Source of the DNA: Pseudidiomarina terrestris
Lineage (GTDB): Bacteria > Pseudomonadota > Gammaproteobacteria > Enterobacterales > Alteromonadaceae
Direction: 5' to 3'
Assembly: GCF_030466405.1 (NCBI RefSeq)
Contig: NZ_JAGGJF010000001.1
Coordinates: 558,001-622,000 of the forward strand
Length of the DNA stretch: 64,000 bases
Below the pieces are notes generated by a model. That model made no database searches. It was not told the origin of the DNA and worked only from the letters and a program-made list of their open reading frames with translations. The position numbers and the translations under genes are program-made. Of the stretch, positions 8,291-57,147 are shown piece after piece; positions within the stretch are counted from its first letter, which is position 1; every line of letters starts with the position of its first letter.

Positions 8291-9073
8291 ATGGTAGCCA
8301 AGGTTTGGTCAGACGTCAGTGGCACAGGAGAGGATATCGTTGTCCTCCATGGCTGGGGTTTAAATGGTGCAATCTGGACACCGGTGCAGGACGAGCTCGC
8401 CCGCCTCGGCCGCTTAACCCGGCTCGATCTGCCAGGGTATGGCGAGTCACCATGGCCCCCTGAGCGTCCGCTCAACTTCACCCAACTCTGTGAGCTAACC
8501 CTCGACGCGCTACCTGCGCGCTGCCACCTGATCGGCTGGTCGTTAGGCGGGCTGGTGGCTACGCAGCTGGCACTGCAGGCACCAGCACGGGTTGCCAGTT
8601 TGACTACGGTCGCCTCCTCGCCCTACTTTCCGGCAGAGCCGCCGGCCTGGCCCGGCATTGAGCCGAGCATCCTGAGCCAGTTCGGCAAACAACTGAGCAA
8701 AGACTTCCGCCGCACTGTGGAGCGGTTTCTAGCCCTGCAGTCGTTGGGCAGCCCCCATGCAAAACAAGATGTGAAAGCGATTAAAGAATGGTTGTTTAGC
8801 AAGCCCATGGCGAGCGTTGAGGTGCTGGATGCCGGTCTGGATATGCTCGCCGAGGTTGACCTGCGTGAGCAACTGCAGCAACTTACCTTGCCGTTCCTAC
8901 GTATCTATGGCCGCCTCGATGCGCTGGTTCCCAGCACTGTTGCGGAGCAGGTGGACCGATTGGCTCCGCACAGCGAGCGCTTCATTGCGCCGCAATGCAG
9001 TCATGCGCCGTTCATCAGCGCCCCCGAAACCTTCTGTGAAGTATGGCGTGAGTTCTTCCTGCGCGTGCGCTAG
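8291..9073 (+). CDS. bioH: Pimeloyl-ACP methyl ester carboxylesterase BioH
   Basis: 260 residues, alpha/beta hydrolase fold. The nucleophile elbow GWSLGG places the catalytic Ser at 84, with Asp210 in YGRLD and His238 in QCSHAP completing the triad; LHGWGLNG near residue 19 forms the oxyanion region. BioH cleaves pimeloyl-ACP methyl ester, ending the pimelate branch of biotin synthesis in the cytoplasm. An AGGA site lies 6 bases before the ATG. The neighbouring ComF-like gene is the usual bioH companion in gammaproteobacteria. It overlaps the convergent mutM by 4 bases. Confidence 0.92.
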
Positions 9074-46818: not shown

Positions 46819-48923
46819 CAGAAGCTATAGTTCCAGTTCAGGCTTAAGGTACGACCGCGACCAGTGAAGTTACGTGAGTCCGAACCTGCCGTCTGCGCAT
46901 AGTAAGTGAAGTAGTACTCATCCAATAAGTTCTCAACACCGACGGTGAACTGGCCATAATCCATGGTCTCGATAAGGACCTGCAGATCCAGAGTCTGGTA
47001 ACCATCAAAGTTATTAATGGCTTGTGCGCCACTGTAAATGTCGCGATCAAACAGCATGTTGTACTGCAAACGGCTGCTGACTAATGCGCCCCACTGCTGC
47101 TCCCAGTAGAGATTGGCACGCTCGGGAGCGATGTTACGACCGCCCAGTTCGCTATCCACCCGGTCGTCGCCGTCGCTGTCGTATTCACCATCGGTTTTGG
47201 CGTAGTTCATGCCAAAGCTGGTGTAGGCCGACCAGGCATAGTTCGCGCTCAGTTCGACACCACTGATTTCCGTGCGCTCACGTTTGACGCTGTAGAAACC
47301 GTCGGCGTCGGCTTGTAAGCGGGCACCAAGGTCAGAGTCTGAGGTGAAGTAGCTGGCACTCAGATTCAGTGCGTTACCGCGGTACTCAATGCCAATTTCC
47401 TGATTGTCAGCAATCACTGGCTGCAAATCCAGGAAGCTGGCTACGCTCAAGTTGGGCTGGCTGATGCCGCGCAGTACGCGCCCTACATCAGGCATACTGA
47501 AGCCTTCCGAGTAGCTGGCAAAGACACGCCAGTCTCTGGTCAATTCGTAAACCGCGCCGACATTTGGCAATAGCTCGTTAAACGACGGTTCACCGCCTTC
47601 CACGAAAACGCTGCCGTAGCTGGCCAGCGTGGTGAAATCGTCCACGTTCAGCTTGCCGTATTCGTAGCGCACGCCGCCACTTAAGGTCAGCCCCTGGTTG
47701 CGGTAGCGCACTTGCGCAAACGGCGCCCAGTTGTCAAAAGTGGTTTCCGGTACCCATTTACGCCCGGTTTGTGCCAGTTCCTGAAAAGTACTGTCGCGCA
47801 AATAATCGACCCCGCTGCTCACGGCAATGGGTAAGTCCGCCACTTTGTTCCAGTTCATGGTTAAGCGTGAGCCGTATTTCTGTGAATCGTTACGCGACTG
47901 ATCAAAGATGTTGTCGCCGTACGCCGGATCTTGGAACGTGGCATAGGTGCCACCCCCGTAAAGGGCCGAAAAGTCCTGTGAGAACAGCTGCCAGTTTAAG
48001 TCGGCGCCTAATACATCAGTGTTACGGTAAGTGACTGTTGTAGTCGTCACCTTATTGCGCGGTGCTTCACCTGCGGCAGGCTCTTCCACTGAGAGGGTCG
48101 GCTCACCTGTACTGCGATCGCCACCCACGGACGAGTAGTCGCCGTTACCTTCCATATCGAAATGGTTCAGCATAACCTCAAGGCTTTGGTTGGCATCGAT
48201 GCGATATCCCAGCTTGGCAAACACATCGTAGCTTTCCGAATCCATGGTATCGCCTTGCGCCATATCAACACCGATCAGCTGACCGTTGCCGTCCACATAC
48301 ATGCCGGTGCTACGCAGTTGCACACCCGCTACCGCAGAGACATCACCAGAAGCGCCACGGAACAGATAGCCGGTGCGGTAACTCAAACCTTCACTGGTTT
48401 CGCTGGTCGGCGCGGTGATGCCTGCGTTGACTTCATGGCTGGCACCCTGCTCGGCAGACTTAGTGACGATATTAATGATACCGCCGCTGGCGCCCATGCC
48501 CTGGATGGCGCTGGCACCGTGAATAATTTCAACCCGCTCAATCATTAGTGGATCGATGGTATAAGACGCCCGCGCGCCGTTACGCAACGGATTGGACTGC
48601 GGCACGCCATCAATCAGATACAGTGGCTCACGACCGCGCAGGGTCTCACCGGAACTGGTTAGCTTCTGCCGCGAAGGGGAAAACGCCGGGACTAAATTGC
48701 CAAGTACATCAGACAGCGTGTCGGCGCTGGCCAGTTGCTGGCGCAGGTCGGCACCATCAATCACCGTCACTGTCGCGGGAATAGTTGCGGTGGTTTGTTC
48801 GGTACGGCTTGCCGTGATTTTAATGCGTTCGTCAGCTTTAACGACCTGACTGTCTTGTTCCTGTGCGACAGCAGGTGTCGCGATAAGAGTGGCAATACTC
48901 AAACTCAGCATGGTTTTTTTCAT
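46818..48923 (-). CDS. TonB-dependent outer-membrane receptor, siderophore type
   Basis: 701 residues. Signal peptide (about 1-20, TPAVAQ), TonB-box-like region (ERIKITASRTEQT), plug domain (23-160) and a 22-strand barrel ending in an aromatic residue (LNWNYSF), the outer-membrane insertion signal. The FTYYAQTAG and GRGRTLSLNW end and the plug sequence fit catecholate or citrate-hydroxamate siderophore receptors; the ligand cannot be told. A Fur-like box precedes it, and a PepSY membrane protein follows in the same operon. Confidence 0.92.
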   Translation of the reverse strand: MKKTMLSLSIATLIATPAVAQEQDSQVVKADERIKITASRTEQTTATIPATVTVIDGADLRQQLASADTLSDVLGNLVPAFSPSRQKLTSSGETLRGREPLYLIDGVPQSNPLRNGARASYTIDPLMIERVEIIHGASAIQGMGASGGIINIVTKSAEQGASHEVNAGITAPTSETSEGLSYRTGYLFRGASGDVSAVAGVQLRSTGMYVDGNGQLIGVDMAQGDTMDSESYDVFAKLGYRIDANQSLEVMLNHFDMEGNGDYSSVGGDRSTGEPTLSVEEPAAGEAPRNKVTTTTVTYRNTDVLGADLNWQLFSQDFSALYGGGTYATFQDPAYGDNIFDQSRNDSQKYGSRLTMNWNKVADLPIAVSSGVDYLRDSTFQELAQTGRKWVPETTFDNWAPFAQVRYRNQGLTLSGGVRYEYGKLNVDDFTTLASYGSVFVEGGEPSFNELLPNVGAVYELTRDWRVFASYSEGFSMPDVGRVLRGISQPNLSVASFLDLQPVIADNQEIGIEYRGNALNLSASYFTSDSDLGARLQADADGFYSVKRERTEISGVELSANYAWSAYTSFGMNYAKTDGEYDSDGDDRVDSELGGRNIAPERANLYWEQQWGALVSSRLQYNMLFDRDIYSGAQAINNFDGYQTLDLQVLIETMDYGQFTVGVENLLDEYYFTYYAQTAGSDSRNFTGRGRTLSLNWNYSF

Positions 48924-48962
48924 AACTACGAATCCTATGTGCGCGATGTCTAAAAAATTTGC

Positions 48963-48981
48963 GCTAATGATAACGATTCGT
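48963..48981. promoter_or_regulatory. Predicted Fur box upstream of TonB receptor
   Basis: GCTAATGATAACGATTCGT matches 13 of 19 positions of the consensus GATAATGATAATCATTATC, with the left two-thirds nearly perfect. It lies 40 bases upstream of the receptor start codon, a normal position for iron repression. Confidence 0.6.
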
Positions 48982-49014
48982 ATTTAAGATTCAATACCTA
49001 AATGGGAATAGTTT

Positions 49015-49860
49015 TCATTTGGTATCTAACAGATTGTGCGAATTCATACTTTCTTCGATTAAACTATCGACTTTCAGGGTTTGGCACAGCTGCACATAGA
49101 GCATATGGCACAAGTGCTGCATCCCTAACTGCATCAGCACACTGTCCATGCGCATATGGGTATCGCCGCCCAACGCAAATAAGCTGATATCGGCCAGCAC
49201 ACTGGTTGGATTATTACCATAGCGGGTCAGTGAGATGACCTTCGCACCTTTGCTTTTTGCCTGCCGCACAATCTTCAGTACATCGCTGTTCTGGCCGCCG
49301 TCGCTTATGGCAAACAGTACGCTGCCCTCACTGAGGGTCGTCGCCATCTGTACCTGCAACGCCGGATCAGTGCTGCTTAAGGTCACTTTACCCATCTGCA
49401 TTAAGCGCAGCACAAAATCTTTCGCCACGATCGCTGATTTGCCAAAGCCCATTACCTGTATGGTTTCGGCAGCGGTGAGCACGCGCAACGCCTGCTGCAG
49501 TTTTTCGACTTCGTTAATGTCAGCTACACCCTGCATGACGGCATAGTTTGCATCGCGCAACTCGGCAAAAGTTGCAGCGATGGAACGCTCCTGAGAAGGA
49601 TGGCTGGCTTGCGTTCGCGACTGACTGGTAGCAGACACTACCGCTTCGTTGACGGCAAACTTCAGATCCGGGTAGCCACGATAGCCAAGCTTTTGACTGA
49701 ACTTGACCACACTGGACTGGCTCACGCCGATGGCATCAGCCAGCTGCTGTGAGGAGTAATCGCGCAACAGATGGGTATTCTCAAGAATAAAATCCGCCAG
49801 CTTGCGCTCGATTAACGACATATCTTCGCGCATTGCGCGTATTTTTAATAAACAGGACAT
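49015..49860 (-). CDS. MurR/RpiR family transcriptional regulator
   Basis: 281 residues. The N-terminal HTH_6 domain (SSQQLADAIGVSQSSVVKFS, about 40-60) is followed by a SIS sugar-phosphate-binding domain (VMGFGKSAIVAKDF, then FAISDGGQNSDVL and VISLTRYGNNP). Relatives sense MurNAc-6-phosphate, glucosamine-6-phosphate or KDPG. It is divergent from the transporter gene of the putative cell-wall-peptide operon, with a palindrome in the gap, so it is the likely local regulator. The effector is not known. Confidence 0.88.
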   Translation of the reverse strand: MSCLLKIRAMREDMSLIERKLADFILENTHLLRDYSSQQLADAIGVSQSSVVKFSQKLGYRGYPDLKFAVNEAVVSATSQSRTQASHPSQERSIAATFAELRDANYAVMQGVADINEVEKLQQALRVLTAAETIQVMGFGKSAIVAKDFVLRLMQMGKVTLSSTDPALQVQMATTLSEGSVLFAISDGGQNSDVLKIVRQAKSKGAKVISLTRYGNNPTSVLADISLFALGGDTHMRMDSVLMQLGMQHLCHMLYVQLCQTLKVDSLIEESMNSHNLLDTK

Positions 49861-49874
49861 AGGTGCTGTCTTTC

Positions 49875-49889
49875 TTCATAATCTATGAA
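49875..49889. promoter_or_regulatory. Predicted RpiR-type operator in divergent gap
   Basis: Perfect inverted repeat TTCATA-ATC-TATGAA. It lies just outside the regulator start codon and 2 bases upstream of the -35 box of the transporter promoter, where a bound dimer could act on both directions. Confidence 0.5.
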
Positions 49890-49891
49890 AG

Positions 49892-49920
49892 TTGGACTCC
49901 CATATTGAATAATTTATTAC
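49892..49920 (+). promoter_or_regulatory. Predicted promoter of the transporter/cell-wall-peptide operon
   Basis: TTGGAC (49892-49897) is separated by 17 bases from TATTAC (49915-49920). The transcript would start near 49927, which leaves only about 5 bases before the ATG at 49932 but a normal leader with an AAGG site for the ATG at 49980. An 8-base inverted repeat CCATATTG/CAATATGG (49900-49907, 49928-49935) flanks the -10. Confidence 0.5.
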
Positions 49921-49979
49921 TGATTGGCAATATGGACGTCAAAAATCCGCCACCAACTATTCAAAACAAGGTCTCATTT

Positions 49980-51353
49980 ATGAGCTGGATGTCCGTACTA
50001 CCGCCGCTAGTGGCCATTATTGTGGTGTTCTGGCGCAAGGAAGTTATTGTTGCCCTGCTCCTTGCCATCGTTACTTCAGAACTTCTGCTTACCTGGCAAG
50101 GTGGTGAACCACTGGTCTACACCTTCGTGGCGACCATTGAACGCATTATTTCTGTATTCGGCTCGCCTGGCAACACGCGAATCCTTATTTTTAGCCTGAT
50201 GGTGGGTTCGCTGCTGGCCTACATCCGCGAATCCGGCGGGGTCGCGGCAACCGTCGAAGCCCTGCTTGCGCGCGGCCTCGGTTCCACCAAGCGCAGCGCC
50301 AGTCTGATGACCGTCTTTACCGGTATCTTCGTGTTTATCGAGTCTAACTTAAGCGTACTCACCGCCGGTATACTTTCACGTGGCCTATTCGAGAAACTGG
50401 GCATGAGCCGCGCGCGTCTGGCCTATCTGATCGATAGTACCAGCGCACCCATTTGTATTCTGATCCTGCTAAACGGCTGGGGCGCCTACGTGCTCGGAAT
50501 GCTCGATCAGCAGGACTTACCCGGCTCCAGTGTCAGCACCTTATGGAGCACTATCCCGTTTAACTTCTACGCACTGGTCACCCTGAGTATCGTTTTTTAT
50601 ACCGCCATCACCGGTCGCGTGTTTGGTCCGATGAAAAAAGTTGAAGAGCGACCGGTCGAGCATAAAGACATACCTGAACATGTACCAAGCAACAGTAAAG
50701 CACGCTATATGTTAGTGCCACTGACCGTCATGGTTGTCGGTATGGTTGCCTTTATGTTTGGTACCGGTGGTGGCGACATCACCCAGGGTGACGGCTCCAA
50801 GTCGGTACTTTACGCGACTGTTCTGGCCTGTGTCGTCGCTTACTTCATGCTCATTATCAGCCGTCGTAAAACCCACCAGCAGCTTGTGAATCTGGGATTT
50901 AAGGGAATGGGCGAGCTGCTACCGCTGGTCAGTATCGTGTTGCTTTCACTTGCCTTAGGCAGCAGTTTGCGCGAGCTGGGCACCGGAATTTTCCTAGCCG
51001 GACTGGTCGGTGAGTTCCTGCCACTGTTCCTGATCGCCCCGATGCTGTTTATCGCCGGTGCTTTAATTTCTTTTACCACGGGTACTTCGTGGGGCACCTT
51101 CGCGATTTTGATTCCGATCGCCGCGCCGATGATTATCGCGCTTGATCTGCCCGCGCCATTATTACTGGCCGCGGTGTTAGGGGGTGGCGTCTTCGGCGAT
51201 CACTGCTCGCCTATTTCAGATACCACTGCGGTGTCAGCACTGGCATCCGGCTGTGATCTGCTCGAGCACGTGCGCACACAGCTCCCTTATGCCCTGACAG
51301 GTGGTGCCATCACTCTGGTACTCTATGTCATCGCTAGTCTGATCATGATTTAA
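49980..51353 (+). CDS. NhaC-family Na+/H+ antiporter-like transporter
   Basis: 457 residues from the ATG at 49980, chosen for its AAGG site and because the predicted promoter starts too close to the upstream ATG at 49932. About eleven membrane helices; ISFTTGTSWGTFAI and FGDHCSPISDTTAVSA are NhaC-family signatures. Family members exchange Na+ for H+ or carry organic acids and amino acids with Na+. As first gene of a cluster of peptide- and D-amino-acid enzymes, a substrate-carrying role is plausible but unproven. Confidence 0.85.
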   Translation: MSWMSVLPPLVAIIVVFWRKEVIVALLLAIVTSELLLTWQGGEPLVYTFVATIERIISVFGSPGNTRILIFSLMVGSLLAYIRESGGVAATVEALLARGLGSTKRSASLMTVFTGIFVFIESNLSVLTAGILSRGLFEKLGMSRARLAYLIDSTSAPICILILLNGWGAYVLGMLDQQDLPGSSVSTLWSTIPFNFYALVTLSIVFYTAITGRVFGPMKKVEERPVEHKDIPEHVPSNSKARYMLVPLTVMVVGMVAFMFGTGGGDITQGDGSKSVLYATVLACVVAYFMLIISRRKTHQQLVNLGFKGMGELLPLVSIVLLSLALGSSLRELGTGIFLAGLVGEFLPLFLIAPMLFIAGALISFTTGTSWGTFAILIPIAAPMIIALDLPAPLLLAAVLGGGVFGDHCSPISDTTAVSALASGCDLLEHVRTQLPYALTGGAITLVLYVIASLIMI

Positions 51354-51371
51354 CCGACGAGACTAAGAACC

Positions 51372-52961
51372 ATGATGCATAACTTAAAATTACTGACCCG
51401 GCCTGCTGTCGCCTTAGCCGCCGCCGTGAGCGTGGGCTTAAGTGCTACAGCTCAGGCAGAGCCAAGCAAAATCAGCAGCGACAAGCTCAATTCAACCGTC
51501 CAGGAAGTGATGTCGGTCTACGCCGTGCCCGGTATGGCCATCGCTATTGTCGAGGGTGACCAGGTGGCGTTCGAAAAGGGCTACGGCGTGCAGGAGATCG
51601 GTGAACCGCGCCAGGTTTCGCAACGAACACTATTTAAAATTGCCTCGGTGACTAAAAACTTCACCACCGCGGCGCTGGCTCTGCTGGTGGATCAGGGCAA
51701 GATCAGCTGGGATGACCCGGTCATTGACTACATTCCCGAATTTCGGGTGCAGGACCCCTGGATCACGCGCAACTTCACGGTGCGTGACTTGCTGATCCAT
51801 AAAAGCGGCCTGAACCTGGGCGCGGGCGATCTGATGTTCTGGCCCACGCCGAATGATTTTACCCGAAAAGATATCCTCCATGGTCTGCAGTACTTGCCTA
51901 TGACAGGTGGCTTTCGCACGCAATATGCGTACGACAATATCCTTTATGTGATCGCCGGTGAGCTGACCGAGCGGGTCACCGGGCAACGCTGGGAAACCTT
52001 TGTTGAAGAGAACCTTATGCGGCCGCTGGGGATGGAGTATTGCTTTGCCGGTCCAGTGCCCGAGGCTTACAAGCAGTACCTTGCGCAGCCACATGGGTTC
52101 TTAGATGAGCAACCGACGGTGGTACGCCGTGACTTTGCCGCGGACTACCTGACTTCGGCCCCGGCGGGCGGCATTCGTTGCAGTATTCAGGCCATGACCA
52201 AGTGGATGAAAATGCACATCGCCCGCGGTGCCTATACCACCGCCGAAGGTGAACAAAAACAATTGATCAGTGCCCGCCAACATGCGGAGATGTGGTCACC
52301 ACAAACCATCATGAACGTCGGCTCCCGCGCCTCTGACTGGGACAACACGCACTTCGCTGCCTACGGTCTTGGCTGGCGTATGCACGATGTCGATGGCTTA
52401 TTACGGGTACACCACACGGGTACCTTACATGGCATGAACGCTTACTTGTCATTCTTTCCCGAGCTTGATGTCGGCTTCATGGTACTGATGAACCGCGCGC
52501 ACAGCGATGCCCGCACCGCCATGATGCAAACCATGATCAAAGCCTACACCGACAGCCCCGACCGCGACTGGATTATGGCCGTGCAAAAATGGCGCGAGCA
52601 GGCCAGCGCCAGCCGTCAGGCAGCGTTTTCAGAGCCTGAGACGCATCCCGTCACTGCGGCAGTGGCCGCGCGTGTAACAGGTGAATATGTCGACCCCTGG
52701 TTCGGCAAAGTCACTGTCAGCTGGCAGGATGGCGAGTTGCGCTGGCGCTCGCACAGGTCTGAGCGGATGGTAGGCGAGCTGTTTCATATTAAAGGCGACA
52801 CCTTTGCCGCGCGCTGGGACGACCGGACCCATCATGCGGATGCCTACGTGCGTTTTACCACCACCATGCAGGGCGATATTCTGGGCATGCAACTGGCCCC
52901 GATTGACCCTGCCGCTGACTGGAGCTTCGACTTTGAAGACCTTAATTTTACTAAGCAGTAA
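51372..52961 (+). CDS. Periplasmic serine hydrolase (class C beta-lactamase-like fold)
   Basis: 529 residues with a signal peptide (about 1-29, TAQAE). The S-x-x-K motif is S92-V-T-K95, the Y-x-N motif lies in YAYDNILY (near 188), and HTG is present in VHHTGTLHG. The C-terminal 100 residues form a separate beta-rich domain like DUF3471. The fold includes D,D-peptidases, D-aminopeptidases, esterases and beta-lactamases. Context with alanine racemase and an NlpC/P60 enzyme favours a peptidase acting on D-residue peptides. It starts 18 bases after the transporter stop. Confidence 0.87.
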   Translation: MMHNLKLLTRPAVALAAAVSVGLSATAQAEPSKISSDKLNSTVQEVMSVYAVPGMAIAIVEGDQVAFEKGYGVQEIGEPRQVSQRTLFKIASVTKNFTTAALALLVDQGKISWDDPVIDYIPEFRVQDPWITRNFTVRDLLIHKSGLNLGAGDLMFWPTPNDFTRKDILHGLQYLPMTGGFRTQYAYDNILYVIAGELTERVTGQRWETFVEENLMRPLGMEYCFAGPVPEAYKQYLAQPHGFLDEQPTVVRRDFAADYLTSAPAGGIRCSIQAMTKWMKMHIARGAYTTAEGEQKQLISARQHAEMWSPQTIMNVGSRASDWDNTHFAAYGLGWRMHDVDGLLRVHHTGTLHGMNAYLSFFPELDVGFMVLMNRAHSDARTAMMQTMIKAYTDSPDRDWIMAVQKWREQASASRQAAFSEPETHPVTAAVAARVTGEYVDPWFGKVTVSWQDGELRWRSHRSERMVGELFHIKGDTFAARWDDRTHHADAYVRFTTTMQGDILGMQLAPIDPAADWSFDFEDLNFTKQ

Positions 52962-52964
52962 CCG

Positions 52965-54068
52965 ATGAACAACGGCTTACATTTTCGTCCAACCCGTGCC
53001 GAAATTTCGATGACTGCGCTGCAACACAACGCCGAGGTCGCCCGCCGCGAGGCCGGCGACTGTAAACTGTTAGGCGTGATTAAGGCAGACGGCTATGGTC
53101 ATGGTGCTATTGCCGTGGCACGCGCCATCAATGGCGCCGTAGATGCTTATGCCGTGGCCTTCATTGATGAGGCGCTGCAACTGCGCGAGGCGGGTTTCAC
53201 CCAGCCCATAGTGCTGCTGGAAGGCTGTTTTAGTGAGGCAGAACTCCCCGTGTGTGCACATTACAATCTGCAGCCGGTGGTTCACCATCAGGGGCAAATT
53301 GATGCCATCGCCGGCGCGCGCCTGGTGAAACCCCTTGCGGTCTGGCTGAAAACCGATACCGGCATGCACCGCTTAGGGTTTGCCCCGGCCGCCGTCGAAG
53401 CTGCCAGTCGTGAGCTGGCCAGCCTGAAGCAAGTGGCAAGTGTCACCCTCATGACCCACTTTGCCAATGCCGATCGTGCCGATCACGACCTCAATACGCT
53501 GCAACAGGAACGCTTCACCGAGCTCTGCGCGTCAACCTCGCCTACCGCCGCGATTAGCAGCGCCAACACCGCAGCTTTGATCAGTAGTGCCATTGATTTA
53601 GGTACCGACACCAATCAGTGGTGTCGCACGGGAATTTTGTTGTACGGAGTCAATCCCACCACCACGGCGCAAACAGAGCAGCTTCAGGCCGCCATGCGCT
53701 TAACCGCGCCGGTCATGGCGTTGCGCGAGATTGCCCCGGGTGAGGCCGTCGGTTATGGCAGTCGCTGGCATGCAGAACGAGCCAGTCGTATTGCAACTCT
53801 GGCCATTGGTTACGCAGATGGTTACCCGCGCCATGCCCCTGACGGTACGCCTGTCTGGCTGAATGGCCAACAGGTGCCACTGGCCGGGACAGTGTCCATG
53901 GATATGATCACCGTGGATGTCACCGGGTTAAAGGAAGTGGCCATAGGTGATGAAGCGGAGCTTTGGGGCCCGAATTTGCCGGTGACCACAGTCGCTGATG
54001 CAGTAGGTTCTATCAGTTATGAGCTGTTGTGTCGTGTCAGCCCGCGTGTACCCAGGCATTACAAATAA
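52965..54068 (+). CDS. alr: Alanine racemase
   Basis: 367 residues. Lys40 in VIKADGYGHGA holds PLP and Tyr264 in VGYGSRW is the second catalytic base; TDTGMHRLGF and TVSMDMITVD are further family marks. It interconverts L- and D-alanine. It starts 3 bases after the serine hydrolase stop, in a putative murein-peptide operon, which suggests a catabolic (DadX-like) role for D-Ala release; a biosynthetic copy may exist elsewhere. Confidence 0.93.
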   Translation: MNNGLHFRPTRAEISMTALQHNAEVARREAGDCKLLGVIKADGYGHGAIAVARAINGAVDAYAVAFIDEALQLREAGFTQPIVLLEGCFSEAELPVCAHYNLQPVVHHQGQIDAIAGARLVKPLAVWLKTDTGMHRLGFAPAAVEAASRELASLKQVASVTLMTHFANADRADHDLNTLQQERFTELCASTSPTAAISSANTAALISSAIDLGTDTNQWCRTGILLYGVNPTTTAQTEQLQAAMRLTAPVMALREIAPGEAVGYGSRWHAERASRIATLAIGYADGYPRHAPDGTPVWLNGQQVPLAGTVSMDMITVDVTGLKEVAIGDEAELWGPNLPVTTVADAVGSISYELLCRVSPRVPRHYK

Positions 54069-54091
54069 TTTATGCCTAAAAAACTTGTTGT

Positions 54092-54108
54092 TTGGAATAT
54101 TATTCCAA
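54092..54108. promoter_or_regulatory. 17-base palindrome upstream of NlpC/P60 gene
   Basis: Perfect inverted repeat TTGGAAT-ATT-ATTCCAA in the 96-base gap after alr. It has the same arm-spacer-arm layout (3-base AT spacer) as the palindrome at the regulator, but different arm bases, so it may bind the same or another dimeric factor. It is too short and AT-poor in stem to be a terminator with T run. Confidence 0.45.
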
Positions 54109-54164
54109 TTTAAGATGGAGACCAGGTACATCCACAAACTTCATCAGCCCACTAGGGAGAAAGC

Positions 54165-55583
54165 GTGAAATATATTGCGTTAGCTATTAGCCTCGCGACC
54201 TTAGCCGGCTGCCAGCCGGCACCAACAGAGGCACCTGAAACCACCACTGCCGTTGCCTATCAGTCGTTACCTGGTTACCAGCACGATGTCATTGGCATGC
54301 AGGAACAGTATCTGGAGCCTGAGTTCTGGGTACAGCGTCTGCAACAACCGCACGCAGCGGTGCTCACTCCTGCCCAGATCACAGCCTTTAATCAGCGCTC
54401 TTATGCAGTGCAGGACGAAATGGTGCTGCTTGACGAGTATCCAACCGAGTTCCGTGCGGCAGAGCTGATTGATAAAATCAACTCGATCAGCAGCCTGCCC
54501 GGTTATCCGCGCTTTTATGCCACCGGTGAGCAAGCAACCACGGCCCAGTTAGAGGGCTACCGGAGTGCTGCTAACCTTGCCGCGGTCGAGGCGGTTAACG
54601 CCGTTCGCTTCGGACTAGTGGTGAAACGCTCTTCGATGCGAACCTTCCCGACATTGGATAAGCTCTACAGTGACGACCTTGATCTCGACATTGACCGCTT
54701 TCAGGAAACCGGAGTCTTTCCAGGTACGCCATTAGCGATCCTGCACACCAGCACAGATGGTAAGTGGTACCTGGCGCAATCCTACCATTACCTGGCCTGG
54801 ATCCAGGCCAGCGATGTTGCCATAGGTCCGCGCGATGAAGTGCTTGCCTTCGCTGACAAAAAACCTTTTGCCGTCGTCACTGAAGCCAAAGTCGAAACTA
54901 ACTATACCCCGAGCTTCGCCCCGGTCTCCGCAGTACAACTGGATATGAGTACCCGTCTACCGTTGTTAAGTGCAGCCGATACCGGGCATGATGTGCATGG
55001 TCAGAATCCGTTTGCCAGCTACACGGTGCAACTGCCGATTCGCGACGCTGAAGGTGCACTGGCCTTCTCGCCAGCGTTAATTGCGCGTCATCACGACGTG
55101 CATGTCGGTTACCTTCCTTATACTGAGGCTAATGTGATTCGACAGGCATTTAAGTTCCTGGGCGAACGCTATGGCTGGGGTCACGATTACAACGCGCGCG
55201 ACTGCACTGGCTTTGTGCTGGAAGTGTATCGGAGTATGGGCATCGATATGCCACGTAACTCCAGCCAGCAAGGTTATGGCGAGTACGGTGACACTGTCGT
55301 GTACGATGAAAACAGCAGTAACGCAGAGAAACTTGCACGCTTAGCCAACGCTAAAGTTGGCGATTTGATTTATTTACCCGGCCACGTGGTCATGTATATT
55401 GGCGACATCGAGGGGCAGCCCTACGTCATTCACGACGTTCACGGACTGAATTACCGCGATGCGGAAGACCAGCACTACCAAGGCACTTTAAATGGTGTCT
55501 CGGTAACGCCGCTGATTGACCTTGGCTTTAGTGCCAATGACACTTACCTGGATCGCATCTATGCGATCAAATCGGTACGCTAA
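54165..55583 (+). CDS. Lipoprotein NlpC/P60 endopeptidase with SH3 domains
   Basis: 472 residues from a GTG start with AGGGAGAA upstream. Lipobox LAGC at Cys16. Residues about 140-290 contain two SH3b-like domains (VVKRSSMRTFP, WIQASDVAI). The C-terminal NlpC/P60 domain has catalytic Cys347 in RDCTGFV, His407 in GHVVMYIG and a third polar residue near VIHDVHG. This layout (signal, SH3, NlpC/P60) matches gamma-D-glutamyl-L-diamino acid endopeptidases such as YkfC, which free L-Ala-D-Glu from murein tripeptide. It stands 12 bases before the epimerase gene. Confidence 0.9.
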   Translation: MKYIALAISLATLAGCQPAPTEAPETTTAVAYQSLPGYQHDVIGMQEQYLEPEFWVQRLQQPHAAVLTPAQITAFNQRSYAVQDEMVLLDEYPTEFRAAELIDKINSISSLPGYPRFYATGEQATTAQLEGYRSAANLAAVEAVNAVRFGLVVKRSSMRTFPTLDKLYSDDLDLDIDRFQETGVFPGTPLAILHTSTDGKWYLAQSYHYLAWIQASDVAIGPRDEVLAFADKKPFAVVTEAKVETNYTPSFAPVSAVQLDMSTRLPLLSAADTGHDVHGQNPFASYTVQLPIRDAEGALAFSPALIARHHDVHVGYLPYTEANVIRQAFKFLGERYGWGHDYNARDCTGFVLEVYRSMGIDMPRNSSQQGYGEYGDTVVYDENSSNAEKLARLANAKVGDLIYLPGHVVMYIGDIEGQPYVIHDVHGLNYRDAEDQHYQGTLNGVSVTPLIDLGFSANDTYLDRIYAIKSVR

Positions 55584-55595
55584 ACAGGAACTGAT

Positions 55596-56696
55596 ATGAA
55601 AATTACTGACATCAAATTCGCTATGCTCCGCGTACCGTTAAAAACACCATTTAAAACGGCGCTGCGTACGGTCGAATCGATAGAAGATATCGTCATTATG
55701 GTGCATACGGATACCGGTCACGTCGGCTATGGCGAAGCGCCAGCGACCGCCGTCATTACCGGTGACACCCATGGCTCGATCATCGAAGCTATCGATCGCA
55801 TCATGAAGCCGAAGCTGGTGGGTCAGGACGTCTCTGATCTGAACCACCTTATCGGTATTATTCAAAACGGTATCATCCGCAACTACAGTGCTAAAGCTGC
55901 TGTGGAAATGGCGGTTTATGATCTGTGGGGACAACTTTACGACGCCCCGCTTTACAAAATGCTTGGTGGCGGCGTGCCGACCATATCGACGGACATCACC
56001 ATCAGCGTCGATTATATTGACAAAATGGTGGCCGACTCACTCGAAGCCATCGACCGCGGTTTTGAAACCCTGAAAATCAAAGTTGGTAAAGATATCGGCG
56101 TGGATATTGAGCGAGTTAAAGCTATCTACGCGGCGGTGGAGGGCAAAGCCCTGCTGCGCCTTGACGCCAATCAGGGGTGGACGCCAAAAGAAGCCGTCTA
56201 TGCGCTGCATAAACTCGAAGGTGCCGGTGTGCGTCTGGAGCTGGTGGAGCAGCCGGTAAAAGCCCGCGACATCGATGGCATGAAGTACATCACCGAACGC
56301 GTGCATACGCCGGTCATGGCCGATGAGAGCAGCTTTGGCCCACGGGAAGTGATCGAGCTGATTAAGATGCGCGCCGCCGACATCATTAACATCAAGCTGA
56401 TGAAGACCGGCGGTATCTCCAACGCAATTAAAATCGCAGATATCTGTTCGGTGTACGATATGCAGTGCATGATCGGCTGTATGCTGGAGTCCAGCATCAG
56501 TGTCTCAGCCGCGGTGCATCTGGCGGTGGCAAAGTCCAACGTGATTACTAAGATAGACCTGGATGGTCCGTCGCTGTGTGCCTTTGATCCCGTTGAAGGT
56601 AGCGTCCGCTTTAACGATGCGGAGATTTCAATTAATGATTCACCGGGGCTCGGTATTAAGTCCGTGGCCGGACTGGAAGAAATTAAGCCGCGTTAA
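55596..56696 (+). CDS. Dipeptide epimerase, L-Ala-D/L-Glu type (enolase superfamily)
   Basis: 366 residues. All muconate-lactonising subgroup residues are there: K160-x-K162, metal ligands D190, E218 and D243, and K267 in NIKLMKTGG. The positions almost coincide with Bacillus YkfB (366 residues). Enzymes of this type epimerise L-Ala-D-Glu to L-Ala-L-Glu so that ordinary peptidases can finish it. Specificity between Ala-Glu and other dipeptides cannot be settled from motifs alone. It closes the plus-strand run. Confidence 0.9.
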   Translation: MKITDIKFAMLRVPLKTPFKTALRTVESIEDIVIMVHTDTGHVGYGEAPATAVITGDTHGSIIEAIDRIMKPKLVGQDVSDLNHLIGIIQNGIIRNYSAKAAVEMAVYDLWGQLYDAPLYKMLGGGVPTISTDITISVDYIDKMVADSLEAIDRGFETLKIKVGKDIGVDIERVKAIYAAVEGKALLRLDANQGWTPKEAVYALHKLEGAGVRLELVEQPVKARDIDGMKYITERVHTPVMADESSFGPREVIELIKMRAADIINIKLMKTGGISNAIKIADICSVYDMQCMIGCMLESSISVSAAVHLAVAKSNVITKIDLDGPSLCAFDPVEGSVRFNDAEISINDSPGLGIKSVAGLEEIKPR

Positions 56697-56712
56697 ACTG
56701 CGCGACGTTGAG

Positions 56713-57147
56713 CTAATCGAGGATGGGTGCAAACCACATCTGCAGCAGACCTAAAAGCAGGGCATAACGCCCTGCTTTACTGATCCAGACAATCACTAAG
56801 AACTCCCAAAAACGCAATCTCAGCATACCTGCAATAAAGGTTAGTGCGTCGCCAATGAACGGCGCCCAGGCCAGCAACAACGACCACTTACCGTAGCGCT
56901 CAAACCACCAATGCCCGCGTTCTAACGACTTTCCTTTAAAGGGAAACCAGCGACGGTGCTGGTACTGCAACAGAAAACGCCCTAAGACATAGTTCACGAC
57001 ACTCCCCAGGGTATTGCCAAGAGAAGCACTCAACCAGATCAACCAGACGTTGTAGCCCATTTGCTGGGCGCTGACCACCAGCACTTCAGACTGTGCTGGT
57101 AGCAGCGTCGCCGCCAGGAAGGCGACCAGAAACAGGCTAAGGTACAC
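56713..57147 (-). CDS. YqaA-type SNARE-associated (DedA-like) membrane protein
   Basis: 144 residues with about four hydrophobic segments and the SASLGNTLGSVVNYVLGRF motif of the YqaA branch of the DedA/SNARE-associated superfamily. DedA proteins are lipid or undecaprenyl-phosphate transporters; YqaA itself is untested. It ends the minus-strand pair with the S9 peptidase, whose stop is 3 bases upstream of its start. Confidence 0.85.
   Translation of the reverse strand: MYLSLFLVAFLAATLLPAQSEVLVVSAQQMGYNVWLIWLSASLGNTLGSVVNYVLGRFLLQYQHRRWFPFKGKSLERGHWWFERYGKWSLLLAWAPFIGDALTFIAGMLRLRFWEFLVIVWISKAGRYALLLGLLQMWFAPILD

Follow-up and report, generated by a model that had tools for sequence, protein, structure and literature searches.

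Gene content of the operon

The window analysed here, a 64,000-nucleotide stretch of the Pseudidiomarina terrestris genome (bases 558001-622000 of contig C6; own genome G000, 2.63 Mb), contains a six-gene locus that is a conserved, predicted murein-peptide operon and most likely belongs to a larger catabolic regulon, judging by its gene identity, synteny, co-occurrence and a common operator-like sequence. The initial annotation had placed a murein-peptide breakdown operon with an RpiR/SIS regulator here, which the present analysis supports. The open reading frame list of the window has the six genes at the coordinates and on the strands first described, and Pfam and NCBIfam scans, together with sequence searches against solved structures for the nearest relatives, confirmed the families of the regulator and of the four enzymes.

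The regulator gene (RpiR1, 49015..49860, minus strand; HTH_6 and SIS domains in Pfam) diverges from five plus-strand genes, which encode a 457-aa secondary carrier of the NhaC/PF03553 family by Pfam (49980..51353), a secreted beta-lactamase-fold SxxK serine hydrolase with DUF3471 (51372..52961, Pfam), an alanine racemase (Alr, 52965..54068, TIGR00492), an SH3-NlpC/P60 lipoprotein (54165..55583, SH3_6 and NLPC_P60 in Pfam) and a predicted L-Ala-D/L-Glu dipeptide epimerase of the enolase superfamily (55596..56696, MR_MLE and 1jpm). The plus-strand intergenic gaps measure 18, 3, 96 and 12 bases, and the 3-18-base gaps between most genes suggest co-transcription. The most likely start of the NhaC-like gene is the ATG at 49980, where the genes of relatives begin, and the divergent RpiR-NhaC gap is therefore 119 bases. 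Promoter and terminator scans of 48900-57000 gave no excess of consensus matches over shuffled sequence (6 against 7.0 and 10 against 8.1, respectively), so transcript ends were not called.

The best solved match of the epimerase is the Bacillus subtilis L-Ala-D/L-Glu epimerase (AEE) 1jpm (346 bits, residues 1-360), with full-length similarity and the catalytic Lys/Asp/Glu set. The KTALRTV, KIK, DANQ, EQP, ADES, KLMK and DxD stretches match 1jpm, and Arg24 and Asp321-x-Asp323, both present, align with the residues that we take to be specific for dipeptides in this enzyme. The protein scored 109 bits against PRK15129 (cut-off 343) and is here called AEE-like by its similarity to 1jpm, with no claim to equivalog status. 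Its sequence has no leader peptide.

Pfam found one SH3_6 and one NLPC_P60 domain only in the NlpC/P60 enzyme, the leader of which contains a lipobox-like LAGC (by eye). Its best solved relatives are DvLysin (3m1u, 95 bits) and PnpA (6sqx, 54 bits); as in DvLysin, PnpA and EcgA, an SH3 domain is followed by NlpC/P60 with a catalytic Cys-His, and the catalytic Cys347, His407 and third residue His423 are kept in 8/8 aligned sequences. By sequence, it is nearest to the DvLysin/PnpA-type gamma-D-Glu-meso-diaminopimelate (mDAP) endopeptidases, although here the gene encodes a lipoprotein and is nearly always beside an epimerase gene. An N-terminal c-clip domain and a second SH3b are further marks of that type. 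According to an excerpt of the PnpA report, that enzyme cleaves gamma-D-Glu-mDAP in tri-, tetra- and pentapeptides linked to N-acetylmuramic acid (MurNAc) (PMC7860986). Membership of the YkfC (free-L-Ala) subfamily, as the initial annotation would have it, was rejected, since Asn365 aligns with the Asp of Arg-Asp-Ser in 3h41, which is the Asp256 position of BcYkfC; YkfC enzymes recognise free L-Ala through Asp256 and Tyr118, according to an excerpt of PMC2954226.

The serine hydrolase (Beta-lactamase 213 bits plus DUF3471; 104 bits against the AmpH model, cut-off 266) has a Sec-type leader (by eye) and the SxxK, YxN and [KH]TG motifs of D-Ala-releasing beta-lactamase-fold peptidases (SVTK at 92, YDN at 187, HTG at 348); its substrate is putative. 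It had been suggested to replace an LD-carboxypeptidase, a suggestion contradicted by the genome itself: an S66 LD-carboxypeptidase is encoded there and, by eye, begins with a Tat-like leader.

Alr scored 335 bits against TIGR00492 (cut-off 168), has DadX (1rcq, 306 bits) as its best solved match and is the single match in the genome at E <= 1e-20. Because it is the only racemase found there, it presumably also serves wall synthesis, and its description as a dedicated catabolic enzyme is not supported. As for its origin, vertical descent with NhaC was not rejected by tree and approximately unbiased (AU) tests (p 0.219), nor was grouping with the Alr copy found in the G208 clade (AU test, p 0.289).

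The carrier is a member of PF03553 by sequence (149 bits, cut-off 23) and was not filed as NhaC, having failed the NhaC Na+/H+ antiporter equivalog TIGR00931 (46 bits, cut-off 370). Sequence searches against solved structures gave no match, either with the carrier alone or with a 27-row profile, and fold comparison led to the broad carrier superfamily only, with no substrate indicated. In 13/13 relatives that have the carrier without an orthologous epimerase, its gene adjoins Alr. Because this pairing persists without the epimerase, an alanine-type substrate, perhaps D-alanine, would fit better than the peptide import proposed at first. Among the literature matches listed, searched by titles and abstract beginnings, no NhaC-alanine racemase pair was reported.

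Neighbouring murein locus and conservation in relatives

A murein locus (C6:622896-640658) begins 8 kb downstream of the operon, just past the window edge, and extends 8-26 kb away. It contains genes for a fusion of amidase_2 with a beta-lactamase fold, with a lipobox-like leader (by eye), a tryptophan-halogenase-family protein, a TonB receptor, GH3, M14, an FAD/Fe-S oxidase, a second RpiR regulator (RpiR2), NamZ, MurQ and SSF. The murQ gene lies 23.5 kb past the epimerase; the earlier statement that none is nearby is thus correct within the window and incorrect for the genome. Nor would the system handle peptides only, as had been deduced, since the locus with MurQ, NamZ, SSF and amidase lies within ~35 kb and has a candidate operator in common with the operon. 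The gene order of this cluster is conserved in 9/9 genomes (own and eight clade relatives, L175-L182). The association of an RpiR/SIS regulator, MurQ, NamZ and a glycosidase recalls the MurR/MurQ systems for MurNAc utilisation, in which a phosphotransferase system (PTS) permease is typical. Here, instead, an SSF symporter is found, and the site is common to a separate peptide operon.

Conservation was assessed in a genus sample of 26 genomes, own included, and in a wider-order sample of 197. Epimerase-like matches at E <= 1e-40 were found in 13/26 genus genomes, and a copy ~60% identical or more in 12/26, own included; matches of 36-37% in G197, G204 and G218 were set aside as paralogues. The full six-gene block is present in nine of the 26 (own and L024-L031), with a shared right-hand flank in 9/9 and a shared TonB receptor on the left in 8/9. 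In the other three of the 12 (L032-L034), a hydrolase-Alr-NlpC-epimerase block sits within the murein locus, whose amidase fusion, GH3 and TonB receptor adjoin it. Two of these three also show S66 and M14, and L032 ends at a contig edge. Matches to the epimerase at E <= 1e-60 were found in 8/197 genomes of the wider order, where the operon is thus uncommon. In the seven order-level relatives besides own (L035-L041) NlpC is beside the epimerase in all, and in four of them (L037-L040) SSF, MurQ, a BadF kinase and RpiR share the fetched locus with NlpC-AEE. Overall, NlpC/P60 adjoins the epimerase in 19/20 loci with an epimerase at least 48% identical (12 genus, 7 wider order), the exception being L102, where the two genes are separated by 2.4 kb that include an S66 gene. 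The six-gene arrangement is not due to chance. The refuting outcome named in the initial annotation, lack of conservation of the neighbourhood, was not seen in the genus, although the operon is uncommon across the wider order.

MurQ, the long amidase and RpiR2 are each present in exactly the 12 genus genomes that have the epimerase. S66 is found in 11 of these 12, being missing from G215 (77% complete), and in 0/14 of the others. Ordinary recycling looks separate from this catabolic set, because Mpl and a short amidase are present in all 26.

Regulator and candidate operator

RpiR1 has an RpiR helix-turn-helix (HTH_6, 77 bits) and a SIS domain (56 bits), as the initial annotation had it; it was not filed as MurR itself, as it scored 129 bits against the MurR equivalog NF012026 (cut-off 408). 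It is a MurR-like RpiR-family regulator with a putative response to MurNAc-6P, and is found at >=84% identity in exactly the nine genomes with the six-gene block.

A candidate operator, TGAATAATTTATTA (49906..49919, plus strand; 14 bases with the palindromic core AATAA-T-TTATT), lies 60 bases before the NhaC ATG, within a block conserved in 9/9 loci. The exact pattern TRAATAATTTATTW has 17 sites in 1.38 Mb of loci (L025 and L092 being the same genome), all of which precede NhaC, NlpC or the murein TonB receptor, judging by gene positions. With the widened 14-base pattern [TG][AG]AATAATTTATT[AT], the nine murein loci (166 kb in all) gave 22 sites, against none in 60 shuffles; each of the nine genomes has two of these between the TonB receptor and GH3, and in 4/9 one precedes SSF. 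In our own genome, the murein locus (L072) has two site matches, a number reached in 0/200 shuffles, and its sites are 57-70 bases before predicted starts. No site of the widened pattern turned up in L075-L091, 17 NhaC/Alr loci that lack the epimerase and total 273 kb; they represent the 14 genomes with no orthologous epimerase and, for G208, G215 and G217, their separate NhaC loci. Likewise, 16 epimerase-free NhaC loci had no operator site in their promoters. In L080, which has no epimerase, the flanking promoter-like sequence is present and the second half of the palindrome is absent; this comparison, made by eye, suggests that the operator arose inside a pre-existing promoter. The peptide operon and the murein locus look like one regulon through this common candidate site. 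No such regulon was reported in Alteromonadales among the literature matches listed, in titles and abstract beginnings.

A second inverted repeat, TTCATAATCTATGAA (TTCAT-aatct-ATGAA, 49875..49889, no strand given), is also present in the RpiR-NhaC gap, intact in six of nine loci and altered in three. With <=2 mismatches, it was found only at the operon among the window, L033-L035, L037-L040 and L072-L074, and is possibly a candidate RpiR autoregulation site. As a shared operator TTCATAATCTATGAA was rejected, because among the scanned loci it occurs only at the operon.

Proposed function and alternative explanations

We are fairly confident that the operon handles the stem peptides within a regulon for feeding on foreign or released peptidoglycan. 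In the route predicted from sequence, for the enzymatic steps as for the regulator-operator pairing, the inducer and the carrier substrate, periplasmic release of MurNAc and of the stem peptides would fall to the neighbouring locus, with its glycosidases and its amidase/beta-lactamase-fold lipoprotein. D-Ala would be trimmed by the exported S66 carboxypeptidase, with the SxxK hydrolase as a probable second enzyme, and the NlpC/P60 lipoprotein would cleave gamma-D-Glu-mDAP. L-Ala-D-Glu would enter the cytosol to be converted by the epimerase into the ordinary dipeptide L-Ala-L-Glu, and D-Ala would enter, perhaps through the NhaC-like carrier, to be used by alanine racemase. An RpiR-type regulator at TGAATAATTTATTA-type operators could co-control the operon and the TonB receptor/GH3 promoters (and SSF in some species), its repression probably being relieved by a MurNAc-derived sugar phosphate.

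The dipeptide epimerase beside an SH3-NlpC/P60 gamma-D-Glu endopeptidase resembles Bacillus ykfABC(D), the closest model being the B. cereus arrangement of an exported NlpC/P60 and a cytosolic epimerase, as described in an excerpt of PMC2954226. In contrast to ykfABC(D), here the LD-carboxypeptidase is not adjacent, the NlpC/P60 enzyme is nearer to DvLysin/PnpA with Asn for Asp256, the NhaC carrier and Alr stand in the place of Dpp/Opp, and an RpiR regulator and a linked MurQ/NamZ/SSF locus are present. The order of reactions, gamma-D-Glu-mDAP cleavage followed by L-Ala-D-Glu epimerisation, is also that of E. coli MpaA-YcjG (excerpt of PMC9928106); here, however, the peptidase is an envelope lipoprotein of a different family, and the genes track the catabolic set while Mpl is kept as well.

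Several points weigh against a peptidoglycan-feeding regulon. The first base of the pattern was widened from T to [TG] after the sites of our own genome had been viewed, and the site in the window is not significant by itself (a match with <=1 mismatch occurs in 11/100 shuffles). The pattern is weakened further when one mismatch is allowed: L081 then has one site inside a coding gene, L073 has one more, and 955 kb of distant loci yield 18. The binder could be either RpiR, as G208 lacks RpiR1 yet carries RpiR2 and the site. Co-occurrence in the genus rests on two clades (nine and three genomes) and thus on few independent events; the epimerase is below the NCBIfam equivalog cut-off (NF041118, 261 against 500 bits); and in our genome the S66 gene is on another contig. 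An importer for L-Ala-D-Glu was not identified; DUF819, which precedes NlpC-AEE in L040, was rejected for this role because 26/26 genus genomes have it, with or without the epimerase.

A self-contained, peptide-only scavenging operon, in which NhaC imports murein peptides and the serine hydrolase replaces an LD-carboxypeptidase, would agree with a block that encodes only peptide enzymes and has NhaC as its first gene, and with the presence of murein markers in the locus for 14/27 non-genus carriers at least 50% identical, against 3/48 more distant ones. We regard it as unlikely: the MurQ/NamZ/SSF locus 8-26 kb away has the same operator-like site, S66 is encoded in the genome, and 13 genomes that lack S66, MurQ and an orthologous epimerase still keep the carrier next to Alr (G197 having a 37% epimerase paralogue). 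These same 13 relatives, with NhaC-Alr at the same neighbourhood without murein genes, bring to mind a housekeeping unit for alanine or D-alanine in which the murein genes are simple insertions, functionally uncoupled from it, an explanation that also suits an NhaC tree fitting vertical descent and the sole Alr of the genome. It is very unlikely, given that RpiR1 and the site occur only in murein-gene genomes, that the site is common to the murein locus, and that the short gaps point to one transcript. Least probable of all, in our estimation, is a weapon rather than a feeding system, with secreted wall hydrolases attacking the walls of competitors as proposed for Photobacterium PnpA. The NlpC/P60 enzyme is closer to PnpA/DvLysin than to YkfC, and PnpA is active on Vibrio peptidoglycan, according to the excerpt of PMC7860986; however, NlpC and the amidase fusion have lipobox-like leaders (by eye), a hint that both stay in the cell envelope, and gene linkage with MurQ, the epimerase and SSF marks the system as catabolic. 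The weapon and feeding roles could coexist.

For the peptidoglycan-feeding regulon, a further and tentative proposal, about which we have more doubt than confidence, is that the NhaC-like carrier founds a transporter subfamily specialised in wall-derived D-alanine (or either alanine enantiomer), ancestrally paired with Alr and captured into the murein regulon when an RpiR operator arose within its promoter. Peptidoglycan has been termed a refractory component of marine organic matter (excerpt of PMC9602339). The gene set, the operator-like site and the candidate D-alanine carrier together offer a testable explanation of how a marine gammaproteobacterium could consume the whole of peptidoglycan, sugars and peptides alike, and the sister genomes that lack the epimerase at this chromosomal neighbourhood serve as natural controls for regulon assembly.

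Additional observations

Genes for an FAD-oxidase_C and an Fe-S protein were found near MurQ (L072:11295-14078). MurQ releases D-lactate, and these proteins may be a matching D-lactate dehydrogenase. Next to the murein locus (L073:2240-6528) there are BadF-type kinase, SIS protein, NagA-like and MFS-like genes, identified by eye from their N-termini; the group resembles an N-acetylglucosamine (GlcNAc) operon and may supply a MurNAc/GlcNAc kinase. In L039 (15141-16994) a BadF-type kinase and a MurQ-like SIS domain are fused in a 617-aa protein.

In L084 (G217:C22, ~8829-8896) UPF0114 directly follows NhaC, with no Alr there. The only Alr found in G217 (86% complete) lies in the murein block, which suggests that it took over the housekeeping role. 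In a Sulfurimonas metagenome-assembled genome (L152:10001-20293), genes for a distant NhaC-like carrier, for DUF819 and for a 39% epimerase homologue are found within ~10 kb.

The 36-37% epimerase paralogues of L042 and L043 (G218:C2 and G197:C5) and of G204:C2 are followed by a second DUF819 gene. The L042 copy is without the Arg24 motif (by eye), and a DUF1611-like gene is also present in L042. The arrangement resembles the DgcN/DgcA D-glutamate catabolic locus.

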